Assembly: GCA_002473085.1 (NCBI GenBank)
Contig: DKTP01000057.1
Span: 1-30,800, forward strand
Source of the DNA: Anaerolineales bacterium UBA7227
Lineage (GTDB): Bacteria > Chloroflexota > Anaerolineae > Anaerolineales > Villigracilaceae
Direction of reading: 5' to 3'
Length of the DNA stretch: 30,800 bases
In this document: positions 9,725 to 13,923 of the stretch, piece after piece
Layout: every line of letters starts with the position of its first letter
Numbering within the stretch: position 1 is the first letter of the stretch
Position numbers and translations under genes: made by a program
The notes under the pieces: generated by a model
What the model was told of the DNA's origin: nothing
Seen by the model: only the letters and a program-made list of their open reading frames with translations
Databases searched by the model: none

Positions 9725-9964
9725 ATGCAAATTATCCGCGCCTCCGAGATCGGAACCTACCTCTACTGCCGCCGCGCCTGGTTCTACCGCAAGCAGGGCG
9801 TGGAATCCGCCAACCAGTCCGAACTGACCGCCGGGACGACTCTCCACCGACAGCACGGACGCGCCGTCCTCGCGGCGGGTCTCTTGCGGACCTTCGGCCT
9901 GCTCCTGCTGCTCCTGGCGTTCACCCTGCTGACGGTTTACCTCGTCGGCATTTTCCTCCGCTAA
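9725..9964 (+). CDS. N-terminal half of a Cas4-like (PD-(D/E)XK) nuclease, membrane-anchored
   Basis: A 79-residue protein that resembles only the start of Cas4/RecB-type nucleases. SEIGTYLYC15RRAW supplies the first Fe-S-type cysteine, and a helix with H41 and H44 (LHRQHGR) matches the family's first conserved His motif. The remainder (about 53-77) is one strongly hydrophobic helix ending in Arg, then a TAA. The catalytic Asp, Glu and Lys are missing and are found in the gene at 10164, in a different frame. The repeat array starts five bases after this stop. I infer either a gene broken by repeat insertion or a natural two-chain nuclease whose halves associate through their membrane helices. 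No cas1, cas2 or CRISPR array is nearby, so a CRISPR role is not supported. Confidence 0.7.
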   Translation: MQIIRASEIGTYLYCRRAWFYRKQGVESANQSELTAGTTLHRQHGRAVLAAGLLRTFGLLLLLLAFTLLTVYLVGIFLR

Positions 9965-9968
9965 CTGG

Positions 9969-10159
9969 GGGCAGTCACGCAGGACTGCCCCTACTCCTGG
10001 CAATCACGCTGGGCTGCTCCTACGCGTCCGACCTCTGGGCAGTCACGCAGGACTGCCCCTACTCCTGGCAATCACGCAGGACTGCTCCTACGCGTCCGAT
10101 ATCTGGGCAGTCACGCAGGACTGCCCCTACTCCTGGCAATCACGCAGGACTGCCCCTAC
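9969..10159 (+). repeat. 68-bp tandem repeat of palindromic (REP-like) units
   Basis: Units begin at 9969, 10037 and 10105 (period 68 bp, the last truncated). Each starts with a perfect palindrome, GGGCAGTC and GACTGCCC around a 6-nt loop, followed by CCTACTCCT. A second, diverged copy of the same core (GGCAATCACGC...CTGC) begins at 9999, 10067 and 10135. There are thus six hairpin-forming cores in about 190 bp. The array exactly fills the gap between the two Cas4-like halves. Confidence 0.9.
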
Positions 10160-10163
10160 GAAT

Positions 10164-10679
10164 ATGCTCTATCTTTCTTTCTTCCTCATCCTCCTCGCCA
10201 TCATCTTTCTCTGGCAATCCAGCCGCCAGCAGAGACAAGCCGGCCTGCCCGGCGGACGCGTCATCTATACCGACACGCGCGCCTGGGGAAGTCCGCTCGA
10301 GGAGCCGCTCTTCGACGCCAGACTCGGGTTGACCGGCAAACCCGATTACCTCGTCGAGCAAAAGGGACAGATCATCCCCATCGAGGTCAAGAGCGGACGC
10401 GCCCCCGACTCTCCGTACGATTCGCACATCTATCAACTCGCGGCGTATTGCCTGCTCGTGGAAAAAGTCTACGGCAAACGCCCGCCCTATGGCATCATCC
10501 ATTATCCGTCCCGCACTTTCGCAGTGGAGTACACCCCCGCGCTCGAATCCTCCCTGCTCGACCTGCTCGCCGACATGCGCCGCGACGAGGCGCGCTCCAG
10601 CGTGGAGCGTTCGCACGACGAGCCGCCGCGCTGCGTCCGCTGCGGCTTTCGGAACGTCTGCGACCAGAAACTGGCGTAA
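10164..10679 (+). CDS. C-terminal catalytic half of a Cas4-like (PD-(D/E)XK) nuclease, membrane-anchored
   Basis: A 171-residue protein that begins with a membrane helix (about 2-18) and then carries the Cas4 catalytic core. GKPD61YL supplies the metal-binding Asp, IPIE74VK76SG the ExK motif, and Q91LAAY95 the QxxxY motif. The C-terminus holds three cysteines, C157-x2-C160-x5-C166, the spacing of the Cas4/AddB iron-sulfur cluster. The fourth cysteine and the conserved His are on the separate protein at 9725. If both are made, cluster and active site would need two chains. Its ATG follows the palindromic array by four bases with no clear ribosome site, so expression may depend on the array. 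nadK follows 69 bp downstream with its own promoter. Confidence 0.8.
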   Translation: MLYLSFFLILLAIIFLWQSSRQQRQAGLPGGRVIYTDTRAWGSPLEEPLFDARLGLTGKPDYLVEQKGQIIPIEVKSGRAPDSPYDSHIYQLAAYCLLVEKVYGKRPPYGIIHYPSRTFAVEYTPALESSLLDLLADMRRDEARSSVERSHDEPPRCVRCGFRNVCDQKLA

Positions 10680-10748: not shown

Positions 10749-11600
10749 ATGCCCGACCCATTCCTGCCGCAGCGCCCGGTTGTGGCTGTCCATCCTAAAA
10801 TGCCCGAAGCGCTCGTGGAAGCCCGCGCCGTCGCCGCCTACTTGAAAGAAAAAGGCCTGGACGCGCCGACCGGCTCCCTGTACGACGAGAGCCTGCGCCG
10901 CCGCGTCAAAAAGAACGAGTTCGACCTGCTCATCGCCCTGGGCGGCGACGGGACCATGCTGCGGGCCGCGCATCTCTGCGCCCCGTCCAACGTGCCGATC
11001 CTGGGCATCAACCTCGGACGTTTGGGGTTTCTAATTCAGGTCGAACACAAGGAAAGCCGCAAACATCTCAACCTGCTGCTGAAAGGCAAAGCCTGGATCG
11101 AAAAACGCATGATGCTGCGGGTCGAATATTTCCGCGCCGGAGAGAGCGGCAGCGTCTCGCACGCGCTCAACGAAGCCGCCGTCAGCCGCGGACAGACGCT
11201 CCGTCCCGTGCGTCTCTCAGTGGACGTGGACGGCCGCCTGCTCACCACCTACGTGGCAGACGGCGTCATCGCCGCCACGCCGACCGGCTCCACCGCCTAC
11301 GCGCTCGCGGCCGGGGGGCCGATCCTGCCTCCCGAATTGCGGAACATCCTCATCGTCCCGATCGCGCCGCATCTCTCCGTGGACCGCGCCGTGGTGCTGT
11401 CGGAAGGCTCGACCGTCAACATCCTCGTCAAAGGCGACAACACCGTCCTGAGCGTGGACGGACAGGAACCGATCATGCTGGCCGAGGACGACCGCGTCAA
11501 CGTGCGCGCCAGCGAGGCCGCCGCCCTGTTCGTCCGCTTCGGCAACCCCGGTTACTTCTATCGCAACCTCACCGAACACATGAACCAGAATTCTCTCTGA
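10749..11600 (+). CDS. nadK: NAD kinase
   Basis: A 283-residue cytosolic enzyme that phosphorylates NAD to NADP, the cell's source of NADP(H). The GGDGT nucleotide motif is at 65-69, followed by NLGRLGF. ALNEAAVSRG carries the conserved Asn-Glu pair. TPTGSTAYALAAGGPI is the family's second signature, and the IAPHLS segment follows. Length is typical. ATG at 10749 is preferred because a TATAAT box ends 8 nt before it. It is followed at a 24-bp gap by the zinc-ribbon membrane protein and then recN; nadK next to recN is a frequent bacterial arrangement, which supports co-transcription. Confidence 0.97.
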   Translation: MPDPFLPQRPVVAVHPKMPEALVEARAVAAYLKEKGLDAPTGSLYDESLRRRVKKNEFDLLIALGGDGTMLRAAHLCAPSNVPILGINLGRLGFLIQVEHKESRKHLNLLLKGKAWIEKRMMLRVEYFRAGESGSVSHALNEAAVSRGQTLRPVRLSVDVDGRLLTTYVADGVIAATPTGSTAYALAAGGPILPPELRNILIVPIAPHLSVDRAVVLSEGSTVNILVKGDNTVLSVDGQEPIMLAEDDRVNVRASEAAALFVRFGNPGYFYRNLTEHMNQNSL

Positions 11601-11624: not shown

Positions 11625-12185
11625 ATGACCGAACTCGCCTGCTACAAACACCCCGACCGCCCCACGCTTCTGCGCTGCAACCAATGCGAGCGTCCCATCT
11701 GCATCTCCTGCGCGGTGCGGACGCCCACCGGCTACCGCTGCAAAGAATGCGTCTCGGGGCAGCAAAAAAAATTCGACACCGCGCTCTGGTCCGATTACGT
11801 GATCGTCTTCTTCACGGGCGCCGTCCTTTCGGGACTGGCCTCGCTGCTCGTGTTGGCGATTTCCTCCTTCATCTGGTTCATCGTCATCATCCTCGCGCCG
11901 ATCACGGGCGCGACCATCGGCAACCTCGCGCGGCGCTTCGTCAAAGGACGACATTCGCGCTGGCTCAACCTGATCTTCGGCGCGAGTATGATCGTCGGCG
12001 CGCTGCCCATGCTGCTGGCGCTTGGTCTCGGCGGGGCGCTCAGCATGATCGCGCTCGGGCAGGGAGGCGGCGCGTCCCCGGCCAGCCTGCTCGCCTTCAC
12101 TCCCCTGCTCTGGCAGGTCGTCTACCTCGTCATTGCCACGCCCGCCGCGTATTCGCAATTCTCCGGCGTGTTCCTGAGAAAATAA
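11625..12185 (+). CDS. B-box-type zinc-finger membrane protein, function unknown
   Basis: A 186-residue protein with an N-terminal zinc-binding module (residues 1-50) and a membrane domain. The module has a B-box-like ligand series: C6 and H9, then CNQC, CISC and CKEC pairs. The rest holds about three to four hydrophobic helices (roughly 58-80, 80-100, 118-145, 155-175). This architecture occurs widely in Chloroflexota and Actinobacteria, but no function is established to my knowledge. It lies between nadK and recN and its stop is 1 nt before the recN ATG, so the two are translationally coupled. Zinc sensing, protein-protein contact or a membrane tether are all possible. Confidence 0.8.
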   Translation: MTELACYKHPDRPTLLRCNQCERPICISCAVRTPTGYRCKECVSGQQKKFDTALWSDYVIVFFTGAVLSGLASLLVLAISSFIWFIVIILAPITGATIGNLARRFVKGRHSRWLNLIFGASMIVGALPMLLALGLGGALSMIALGQGGGASPASLLAFTPLLWQVVYLVIATPAAYSQFSGVFLRK

Positions 12186-12186
12186 C

Positions 12187-13923
12187 ATGCTCGCCGAACT
12201 CCGCATCCAGAACTTCGCCATCATTGACCGCCTCGATCTCAAACTCGGCGCCGGACTCACCATCCTGACCGGCGAGACGGGCGCGGGCAAATCCATCATC
12301 CTCGACGCCGTCACCATGCTCATCGGCGGACGCGCCGACGCGTCCGTCATCCGCGCCGAGGCGGACGCGGCCTTCGTCGAGGGAACCTACGCCCTCGCCG
12401 GGTCCGCGAAAGAAGCGGTGAACGAAATCCTGAAACGCGAGGAACTGGACGACGATCCCAACCACGTGACGTTGACGCGCGAAGTCCGCCGCGAGGGACG
12501 CTCCATCGCCCGCCTCAACGGCCGGACCGTCAGCCTGTCCCTGCTTCGGGAAGTGGGCGCGCATCTCGTGGACATCCACGGGCAGAGCGAGCATCTCTCC
12601 CTGCTCGACCCGCGCGCCCATCTCGGCCTGCTCGACCGTTTCGCGGACGTGACGCCGCTCCTCACGGAGTATCGCAAGACCTACCGCGCGCTGCTCGACC
12701 TGCGCCGCGAACTGACCGACCTGCGCGCCGCCCAGGCCGACGCGGCGCGCCGCGTCGAAATGCTCACCTTCCAGGCCGAAGAGATCGAAGCCGCAAAATT
12801 GAAAAAGGGCGAAGACGAGGAACTGCGCCGCGAGCGCGACCGCCTCGCCAACGCCGAATCCCTCGCGCAGCACGCGCAGGAAGCGCTCGCCGTCCTCGAC
12901 GAATCCACGCCCGAGGCCTCCGCCGCGTCCGACCTGATGGGGCAGGCCGTGCAGGCGTTGTCCGCGCTCGCGAAGACCGACCCGTCGAAAAAAGAACTCG
13001 CCGAGCGGATGGACATCCTGTCCGAAAATCTCGCAGACCTGTCGCGCGAACTGCGCGACTATCTCGAAGAAATCGAGTTCAATCCCAAGCGGTTGGACGA
13101 AGTCGAAGAACGCCTCAACCTCGTCTTCCAGTTGACGCGCAAATACGGCGGGAGCATCGAGGCTGTCAATAAATTCGGCGCGGAGGCGCGGGCGCAGCTC
13201 GAAACCATCTCCACCGCCGGAGAGCGCGTCGAAGAATTATCCGCCGCCGAAGCGAAACTGCTCGAAAAACTTTCCGCGCAGGCGCTGAAACTGTCCGAAA
13301 AACGCAGGCAGGCCGCGGAGACGATGAGCCGCGGCATCGAGACGGAACTCGACGACCTGAAGATGGCCGCCGCCCGCTTCGGCGTGGACTTCCAGACGCG
13401 TCCCGACCCGAACGGGATTCCCCTCGCGGACGGGACGCGCGCCGCCTTCGATCAAAACGGGTTCGACCGCGTCGAGTTCCTCGTCGCGCCGAATCCTGGC
13501 GAGGGACTCAAACCGCTGGCGAAGATCGCCTCGGGCGGCGAGACCTCGCGCCTCATGCTGGGACTCAAAAACGTCCTCGCCCGCGCCGACGAGATTCCGA
13601 GTCTCATTTTCGATGAAATTGATCAGGGCATCGGCGGACGCGTCGGCCTGGTGGTGGGATACAAACTCTGGCGGCTGGCGCGCAACCATCAGGTCTTCTG
13701 CGTGACGCACCTGCCGCAACTGGCCGCCTTTGGAGACCAGCATTATCAGGTGCAGAAACTCGTCGAAAAGAACCGCACGCTCACCCGCGTGGAAAAAGTG
13801 GACGGCGACGCGCGCCTGCTCGAACTCTCGCAGATGCTCGGCGAGGTCGGCGAGGGGACGCTCCGTTCCGCGCACGAAATTTTGCAGACGGCGAGGCAGA
13901 TGACCAAAGAAAGCAAGAAGTGA
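12187..13923 (+). CDS. recN: DNA repair protein RecN
   Basis: A 578-residue SMC-like ATPase that acts early in double-strand break repair by holding DNA ends or sisters together. Walker A (GETGAGKS, 29-36) follows the LRIQNFAIID opening typical of RecN. Long coiled-coil arms rich in Glu, Arg and Ala span about 150-380. The C-terminal lobe has the ABC signature ASGGETSRLML, Walker B (SLIFDEIDQGIGG) and the H-loop region VFCVTHLPQLAA. Length is close to the usual 550-580. It starts 1 nt after the upstream stop. No SOS box was identified in the window upstream of nadK or recN. Confidence 0.97.
   Translation: MLAELRIQNFAIIDRLDLKLGAGLTILTGETGAGKSIILDAVTMLIGGRADASVIRAEADAAFVEGTYALAGSAKEAVNEILKREELDDDPNHVTLTREVRREGRSIARLNGRTVSLSLLREVGAHLVDIHGQSEHLSLLDPRAHLGLLDRFADVTPLLTEYRKTYRALLDLRRELTDLRAAQADAARRVEMLTFQAEEIEAAKLKKGEDEELRRERDRLANAESLAQHAQEALAVLDESTPEASAASDLMGQAVQALSALAKTDPSKKELAERMDILSENLADLSRELRDYLEEIEFNPKRLDEVEERLNLVFQLTRKYGGSIEAVNKFGAEARAQLETISTAGERVEELSAAEAKLLEKLSAQALKLSEKRRQAAETMSRGIETELDDLKMAAARFGVDFQTRPDPNGIPLADGTRAAFDQNGFDRVEFLVAPNPGEGLKPLAKIASGGETSRLMLGLKNVLARADEIPSLIFDEIDQGIGGRVGLVVGYKLWRLARNHQVFCVTHLPQLAAFGDQHYQVQKLVEKNRTLTRVEKVDGDARLLELSQMLGEVGEGTLRSAHEILQTARQMTKESKK

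Follow-up and report, generated by a model that had tools for sequence, protein, structure and literature searches.

A predicted two-chain, membrane-anchored variant of Cas4 in the Chloroflexota

Introduction

Nucleases of the Cas4 type are known as single chains or as domains of helicases. Here we describe a pair of small genes, ORF1 and ORF2 (open reading frames, ORFs, of 79 and 171 amino acids, aa), across which the motifs of such a nuclease are distributed. The pair lies in a stretch of 30,800 nucleotides (nt) from Anaerolineales bacterium UBA7227, a member of the Chloroflexota, which we call the window (assembly GCA_002473085.1, contig DKTP01000057.1, positions 1–30,800). The genome to which it belongs is 97% complete.

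The pair shares with solo-Cas4 (COG1468, TIGR00372, PF01930) the catalytic motifs, four cysteines, the predicted fold and the absence of a CRISPR neighbourhood, but its two chains are encoded by separate genes, and a membrane helix is predicted in each. A monophyletic solo-Cas4 was reported in many Chloroflexi (Hudaiberdiev et al., 2017; PMC5704561), named alongside one in Thermoanaerobacterales, and the ORF2-type genes may well be the solo-Cas4 of Chloroflexi. The available text of that study mentions neither a split nor membrane anchoring; the word ‘membrane’ occurs once and ‘split’ not at all. Unlike Cas4 of CRISPR adaptation (e.g. 7mi4, 8d3l), the pair has no cas1 or cas2 adjacent to it, and no cas1 was found in the window's genome, which extends a preliminary description, made from the DNA letters alone, that had noted none nearby.

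According to the available text of PMC3466216, the Cas4 protein Sso0001 is a 5'-3' exonuclease of single-stranded DNA (ssDNA), with an iron–sulfur (Fe-S) cluster on four cysteines, and is proposed to resect; AddB carries a four-cysteine staple. The Fe-S nuclease domains of AddB, AdnAB and Dna2 have the RecB-like fold in common with the pair. These nucleases, however, are domains of large helicase-nuclease chains, whereas the pair consists of two small proteins (79 and 171 aa) in which Pfam finds no helicase domain, and there is no SF1-helicase fusion as in AddB, AdnB or RecB. SNIPE is described, in the available text of PMC13190303, as a membrane-bound, cytoplasm-facing nuclease that cuts phage DNA during injection. 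Its likeness to the pair, whose topology is predicted, is a functional analogy only: SNIPE is a single chain with a GIY-YIG nuclease and DUF4041, neither of which is among the Pfam matches over cut-off for the pair. ACE1, an Argonaute-associated Cas4 family protein (9iab, 9iac), shares the Cas4-family fold, going by the titles of its structures, which do not name Cas1-Cas2. Literature searches, mostly at title level and reaching little of the subscription literature, found no published split or membrane Cas4. Judged by these comparisons, the pair is a putative novel form of Cas4, made as two chains with predicted membrane anchors.

Results

The Cas4 motif set is divided between two genes

The two genes, their parts and the repeats between them are listed below.

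9725–9964, + strand: ORF1, 79 aa; N-terminal part of Cas4 (Cys15, His41), ending in a predicted membrane helix
9767–9769, + strand: codon of Cys15, the predicted fourth Fe-S ligand, on chain 1; invariant in 20 rows
9893–9958 (approximate), + strand: C-terminal membrane helix of ORF1 (residues 57–78), from hydropathy and a helix in the AlphaFold2 (AF2) model of a relative
9969–10172, + strand: hairpin repeat array, 3 x 68 nt; the last unit overlaps the start of ORF2, and the part between the ORFs is 9969–10163
10164–10679, + strand: ORF2, 171 aa; membrane helix, PD-(D/E)XK nuclease core and three C-terminal cysteines
10164–10214 (approximate), + strand: N-terminal membrane helix of ORF2 (residues 1–17), from hydropathy and a helix in the AF2 model of a relative
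10344–10391, + strand: active-site codons, D61 to E74-x-K76; invariant in 20 rows
10632–10661, + strand: C157-x2-C160-x5-C166, predicted Fe-S ligands on chain 2; invariant in 20 rows

Both genes are on the + strand, in different frames. The preliminary description had reported these ORFs, their Cas4 residues, a membrane helix in each and a hairpin array between the halves, and all of these are present at the locus, the helices as hydrophobic segments. Among 20 rows from the window's order, C15, G37 and H41 of ORF1 and D61, E74, K76, Q91, Y95, C157, C160 and C166 of ORF2 are invariant. The Cas4 motif set, PD-(D/E)xK and QxxxY with one N-terminal and three C-terminal cysteines, is complete only across both chains; at the window's locus no one polypeptide carries all of it, and the two ORFs are unlinked in 13 genomes (see below).

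Profile matches are divided in the same manner. The NCBIfam Cas4 model TIGR00372 (180 positions, cut-off 65 bits) is matched by ORF1 at positions 2–45 (E 4e-4, 20.3 bits, below cut-off) and by ORF2 at positions 62–178 (71.1 bits, over cut-off), and coverage by PADLOC models is likewise complementary. In Pfam, the sole matches of ORF2 over cut-off are PDDEXK_1 (PF12705, 39.1 bits) and Cas_Cas4 (PF01930, 36.0 bits). Databases often name ORF2 ‘CRISPR-associated Cas4’, and ORF1 ‘hypothetical’ or ‘Cas4’. Because ORF2 passes the Cas4 cut-off and ORF1 goes by either of these names, their partnership is easily overlooked. Besides ORF2, the only PF12705 protein found in the window's genome is a second RecB-like nuclease, a single chain of 272 aa (L291, C182:6234–6929).

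The split state is conserved in the order and across the phylum

The order set comprised the window's genome and 100 relatives; the genomes are related, so all counts given here and below are non-independent. ORF2 was found in 86 of the 101 genomes. ORF1 was detected in 87 at E ≤ 1e-3, strongly in 85 and weakly in two (G098, 2.3e-5; G057, 4.6e-4). All 85 genomes with a strong ORF1 also carry ORF2, and both weak matches fall among the 15 genomes without it. In the sole ORF2 genome that lacks a strong ORF1 (G005), only some 200 nt separate ORF2 from the end of its contig. One locus was read in 74 of the 86 ORF2-bearing genomes. ORF1 lies upstream on the same strand in 72 of these; of the other two, one is at a contig end (L032) and one belongs to a genome, G002, with ORF1 on another contig (L056). 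A second sample, the named loci, consists of the best 80 of 437 relatives, with titles mostly of Anaerolineae or Chloroflexi and genomes partly shared with the order set; ORF1 is upstream of ORF2 in 75 of them.

The split form extends beyond the window's order to other families and classes of Chloroflexota. In a set of 400 genomes of the phylum, 156 have an ORF2 match at E ≤ 1e-3. At E ≤ 1e-44 there are 86, and every one of them also has an ORF1 match of E ≤ 1e-14. A strong ORF1 with ORF2 undetected occurs in one genome (G157, 82% complete), and another (G410) has a weak ORF1 only (4.8e-6). A mid-range ORF2 match (1e-39 to 1e-19) occurs in 36 further genomes, 28 of which belong to a large-genome family, f41. 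The ORF1 profile matches 16 of the 36; of the 20 that it misses 11 were fetched, and an iterated profile showed each of these 11 to have ORF1, either as a gene upstream or as part of a fusion with ORF2. ORF1 is also present in 15 of 15 fetched f41 loci, as a separate gene in 13 and fused in two. Weaker ORF2 matches make up the remaining 34. Five weak-match loci were placed on the tree as single-chain Cas4s (L246, L247, L249, L250, L251) and fall outside the split clade; some of them come from genomes that also carry the split pair.

The preliminary description had considered two readings of the locus, a two-chain membrane nuclease, perhaps serving DNA uptake or anti-plasmid defence, and a recently broken gene. 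The conservation of two ORFs with their helices in relatives, phylum-wide and on plasmids supports the former at the level of sequence. The latter leads one to expect relatives with a continuous ORF at the locus, and a fused ORF1-ORF2 was found in none of the 74 loci read from the window's genome and its order.

Spacing was measured in 119 split pairs, comprising 75 named loci and 44 more distant ones, with start codons assigned by rule. The genes lie within 30 nt of each other in 58 pairs, overlap in 28 (by 4 nt in 20 of these) and are more than 400 nt apart in 24; gap lengths and frames vary freely in the loci read. In 23 of the 80 named loci a gene of about 210 aa stands between ORF1 and ORF2 with the pair intact (e.g. 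L007:865–1491). This gene has no Pfam or PADLOC match, and the name that we use for it, HEAT-like, is an impression only.

In 13 genomes both genes are present but unlinked. Three of these have them on one contig, 2.8 Mb (G294), 0.9 Mb (G370) and 0.18 Mb (G429) apart. The other ten, as draft assemblies, carry them on separate contigs, and the stretch read upstream of ORF2 (at least 2.4 kb) contains no ORF1; in four of the unlinked genomes there is none within 3.2–4.5 kb upstream. The unlinked ORF1 of G002 is close to a contig end. Reading covered ten of the 13 unlinked ORF1s; each of them retains the Cys motif and also, judged by eye, the C-terminal hydrophobic stretch. A TGA seemingly inside unlinked ORF1s is merely their own stop codon.

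Both chains have predicted membrane segments and are under purifying selection

Using a KD19 hydropathy of at least 1.6 as the mark of a membrane-like segment, we find such a segment in 119/119 ORF1 and 114/119 ORF2 proteins of the split pairs. A positive-inside bias accompanies it in 106/119 ORF1 and 114/119 ORF2. In contrast, nine single-chain relatives have a maximum KD19 of 0.61–1.44 and no membrane-like segment, and four Cas4 controls from CRISPR systems are single chains with no hydrophobic segment.

In the same 119 pairs, the Cys motif of ORF1 is present in 115; of the four misses, three are cut at contig ends and one, L237, is a broken copy. ORF2 has CxxC..C in 117, PD in 113 and ExK in 111. 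One ORF2 (L244, genome G108) has neither PD nor ExK and keeps its C-terminal cysteines, and the adjoining ORF1 retains its own.

The ratio of nonsynonymous to synonymous substitution rates (dN/dS) was estimated on 22 non-overlapping close pairs. ORF1 has a median of 0.134 and a maximum of 0.31, ORF2 a median of 0.074 and a maximum of 0.19, which indicates that both genes are under purifying selection.

An AF2 model of a relative, built as one read-through chain, is predicted to have a RecB-like Cas4 fold, with one helix at residues 32–78 (covering the membrane part of ORF1) and another at 83–110 (covering the membrane part of ORF2). Its structure matches include AdnA and Dna2.

Natural fusions lie among split genes within one clade

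A search with a fused protein (L230) as query gave 438 proteins at E ≤ 1e-3, of which 120 were listed. Among these 120 there are 22 fused proteins (P0121–P0141, P0143) of 276–339 aa, including records from Reticulibacter and Dictyobacter; one of them, P0131, is without its N-terminus. The fused proteins have two hydrophobic spans linked by a short loop. CxxC..C is kept in all 22 of those listed, and D, E and K are all kept in only two (P0132, P0137). Loss of the catalytic D or E is also seen in some split copies of the clade that contains the Ktedonobacteria. This pattern suggests that, in members of this clade, the fold stapled by cysteines persists after catalysis is lost.

On a tree of 123 rows, 23 of them fused (with near-duplicates L236/P0140 and L230/P0121), the fused rows all lie inside one clade with Ktedonobacteria, interspersed with split rows. 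Nine changes between the fused and split states are counted, irrespective of direction, and at least two of them are forced by well-supported branches. In a second tree, from which the membrane columns were omitted, 29 split-type rows (26 from Chloroflexota, one of them a fusion, 2 from Planctomycetota and 1 from Bacillus) stand apart from 8 single-chain Cas4s with support of 99/95. The single-chain rows here are few and drawn from ORF2 matches, and two long rows, that of Bacillus and one of the Cas4s, are unsure in placement.

The pair occurs on plasmids of other phyla

A tblastn search of plasmids with ORF2 gave four records at E ≤ 1e-5, PALBO2 of Paludisphaera borealis and three B. subtilis plasmids; a copy on Singulisphaera pSINAC03 was found at a looser limit. 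The copies on PALBO2, NRS6107_2 (B. subtilis) and pSINAC03 were translated. In each case a small protein with the Cys motif and a C-terminal hydrophobic segment is encoded upstream of an ORF2-like protein, which has an N-terminal hydrophobic segment, PD, E-x-K and CxxC..C. ORF2 ends 1.6 kb before a mobF relaxase gene on pSINAC03, which is typed as conjugative (L297 8651–13832), and 4.1 kb before one on PALBO2, typed as non-mobilizable (L295 14642–22238). The position of these two copies near relaxase genes would fit an action on transferring DNA.

A plasmid of Planctomyces sp. SH-PL62 has a short, probably decaying ORF2-type copy (L298, 8837–9336) beside an IS701 transposase. Carriage by viruses was also considered and rejected: neither the ORF2 of the window nor that of B. 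subtilis matched anything in phages, and none of 32 pattern matches on viral contigs was confirmed.

The pair has conserved neighbours and is independent of CRISPR

Three genes follow the pair in the window.

10749–11600, + strand: NAD kinase gene (nadK); downstream neighbour in 70/80 named loci
11625–12185, + strand: gene with a weak B-box zinc-finger match (21.2 bits against a cut-off of 24.1); neighbour in 69/80 named loci
12187–13923, + strand: recN-like gene (RecF/RecN/SMC domain); neighbour in 65/80 named loci

No recN was seen in 54 more distant loci, read for about 3 kb each way. The gene cas1 is present in 37 of the 101 genomes of the order set; of the 86 that bear ORF2, 36 have it and 50 do not. 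Because these 50 genomes are without cas1, the pair does not depend on CRISPR. This context would agree with a nuclease that is maintained vertically and acts at the membrane.

The array between the two ORFs is built from a 22-nt palindrome-like repeat, a REP-like dispersed element, of which there are 14 copies on 9 contigs of the window's genome (allowing up to 2 mismatches). In the closest relative read (L002), the ORFs are split with a gap of 35 nt, so the array is unnecessary for the split. This relative and the dispersed copies rule out the array as a functional part; it is an incidental repeat outside the nuclease system.

Discussion

ORF1 and ORF2 probably encode subunits that together form a single nuclease of the Cas4 type (RecB-like, Fe-S) in the membrane. 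The basis for this reading is that the genes are separate and co-inherited, that their motifs, hydrophobic segments and selection agree with it, and that profile coverage is complementary, natural fusions exist and a Cas4 fold is predicted. That the nuclease would be two-part and membrane-bound follows from separate chains with predicted anchors, each holding part of the working centre. We infer a heterodimer, an Fe-S cluster, nuclease activity and the following topology. Chain 1, with its N-terminus inside and its C-terminus outside, would supply the first helices, the His motif and one cysteine, and its His helix would continue directly into the membrane. Chain 2, oriented N-out and C-in, would begin with a membrane helix, followed by the strand core with D, ExK, QxxxY and three cysteines. 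The two membrane helices would pair as a hairpin, the cytoplasmic parts of both chains would together make up a single Cas4 fold, and across the chain interface the Fe-S staple would be assembled, its ligands divided 1+3. Because the proposed staple spans the interface, activity would require the two chains to come together in the membrane.

As to function, we tentatively suggest that the enzyme trims or destroys ssDNA ends on the inner side of the membrane, for example on DNA entering by conjugation, injection or uptake. The fuller proposal is rather doubtful: an obligate split Fe-S nuclease switched on next to membrane-crossing DNA, serving as a CRISPR-independent DNA-entry enzyme in most genomes of the order, in other classes of Chloroflexota and on plasmids, some of them near transfer genes. 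A role on DNA crossing the membrane is slightly favoured over one in repair. It is somewhat unlikely that the pair is instead a housekeeping repair nuclease docked at the membrane, acting for example in resection or in removal of stray ssDNA with RecN. Such a role would agree with the frequent position of the pair ahead of nadK, the zinc-finger-like gene and recN, with its chromosomal presence in 86 of 101 genomes under purifying selection, with the finding of only two PF12705 proteins in the window's genome and with the resection proposed for Sso0001 (available text of PMC3466216). However, recN is not seen near the more distant loci, the pair is absent from 15 of the 101 genomes, and the plasmid copies near mobF misfit a pure repair role.

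Several observations weigh against an active two-chain nuclease at the membrane. Besides the absences from the order set, PD is missing from 6 and ExK from 8 of the 119 pairs, and one or more of the catalytic D, E and K is gone from 20 of the 22 listed fused proteins. Because these residues are lost while the cysteines stay, catalysis is not always under selection, and the losses count against catalysis in the fused and split members of the Ktedonobacteria clade that show them. No relaxase is listed within 15 kb of the pair on NRS6107_2, and the neighbours differ between named and more distant loci. The AF2 model represents a read-through single chain, not two separate chains; its C-terminal Cys region is mostly at pLDDT <50, and its Foldseek matches to Cas4 have low TM-scores, 0.26–0.49 by model length. 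The data are all sequence-based and come mostly from draft metagenome assemblies. The residue losses, with cysteines outlasting catalytic residues in split pairs and listed fusions alike, would also be expected of a mainly structural or redox Fe-S module in the membrane whose nuclease chemistry is lost or secondary. We consider this improbable, as no active-site residue varies among the 20 rows from the window's order, and all three plasmid pairs read have these residues.

It is very improbable that each chain acts alone, with ORF1 serving for instance as a membrane adaptor for another partner. The 13 genomes with unlinked genes, and G157 with its strong ORF1 and undetected ORF2, could be taken in this sense, but all 13 keep both genes, ORF1 holds the N-terminal segment of Cas4 that ORF2 lacks, and fusions join the two in one clade. 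We give little more than nominal weight to the idea that programmed frameshifting or stop read-through yields one protein from the two ORFs. The 28 overlapping pairs, 20 of them by 4 nt, and the natural fusions are compatible with it. Frameshifting or read-through is nevertheless excluded as a general mode because 13 genomes keep both genes unlinked; moreover, more than 400 nt separate the genes in 24 of 119 pairs, a HEAT-like gene intervenes in many, and gap lengths and frames vary freely. Finally, a single-chain Cas4-like gene broken recently in the window's genome by the hairpin array, as the 3 x 68-nt array exactly between two halves that are each incomplete alone might suggest, can be dismissed almost entirely, given that none of 74 loci is fused, that the split is phylum-wide and found in two other phyla, that both halves possess a start and a hydrophobic segment of their own, that dN/dS is far below 1 and that L002 is still split with a 35-nt gap.

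Most of the Chloroflexota genomes in which this nuclease was found encode it as two proteins, and going by their sequences these bacteria appear to keep a two-part, CRISPR-independent nuclease at the cell membrane. If the two-subunit reading is true, Fe-S ligands divided 1+3 between two membrane chains would be an unusual form of nuclease control, and the question would arise of what bacterial solo-Cas4 genes do. The presence of the pair on B. subtilis plasmids makes its function testable in a tractable host.
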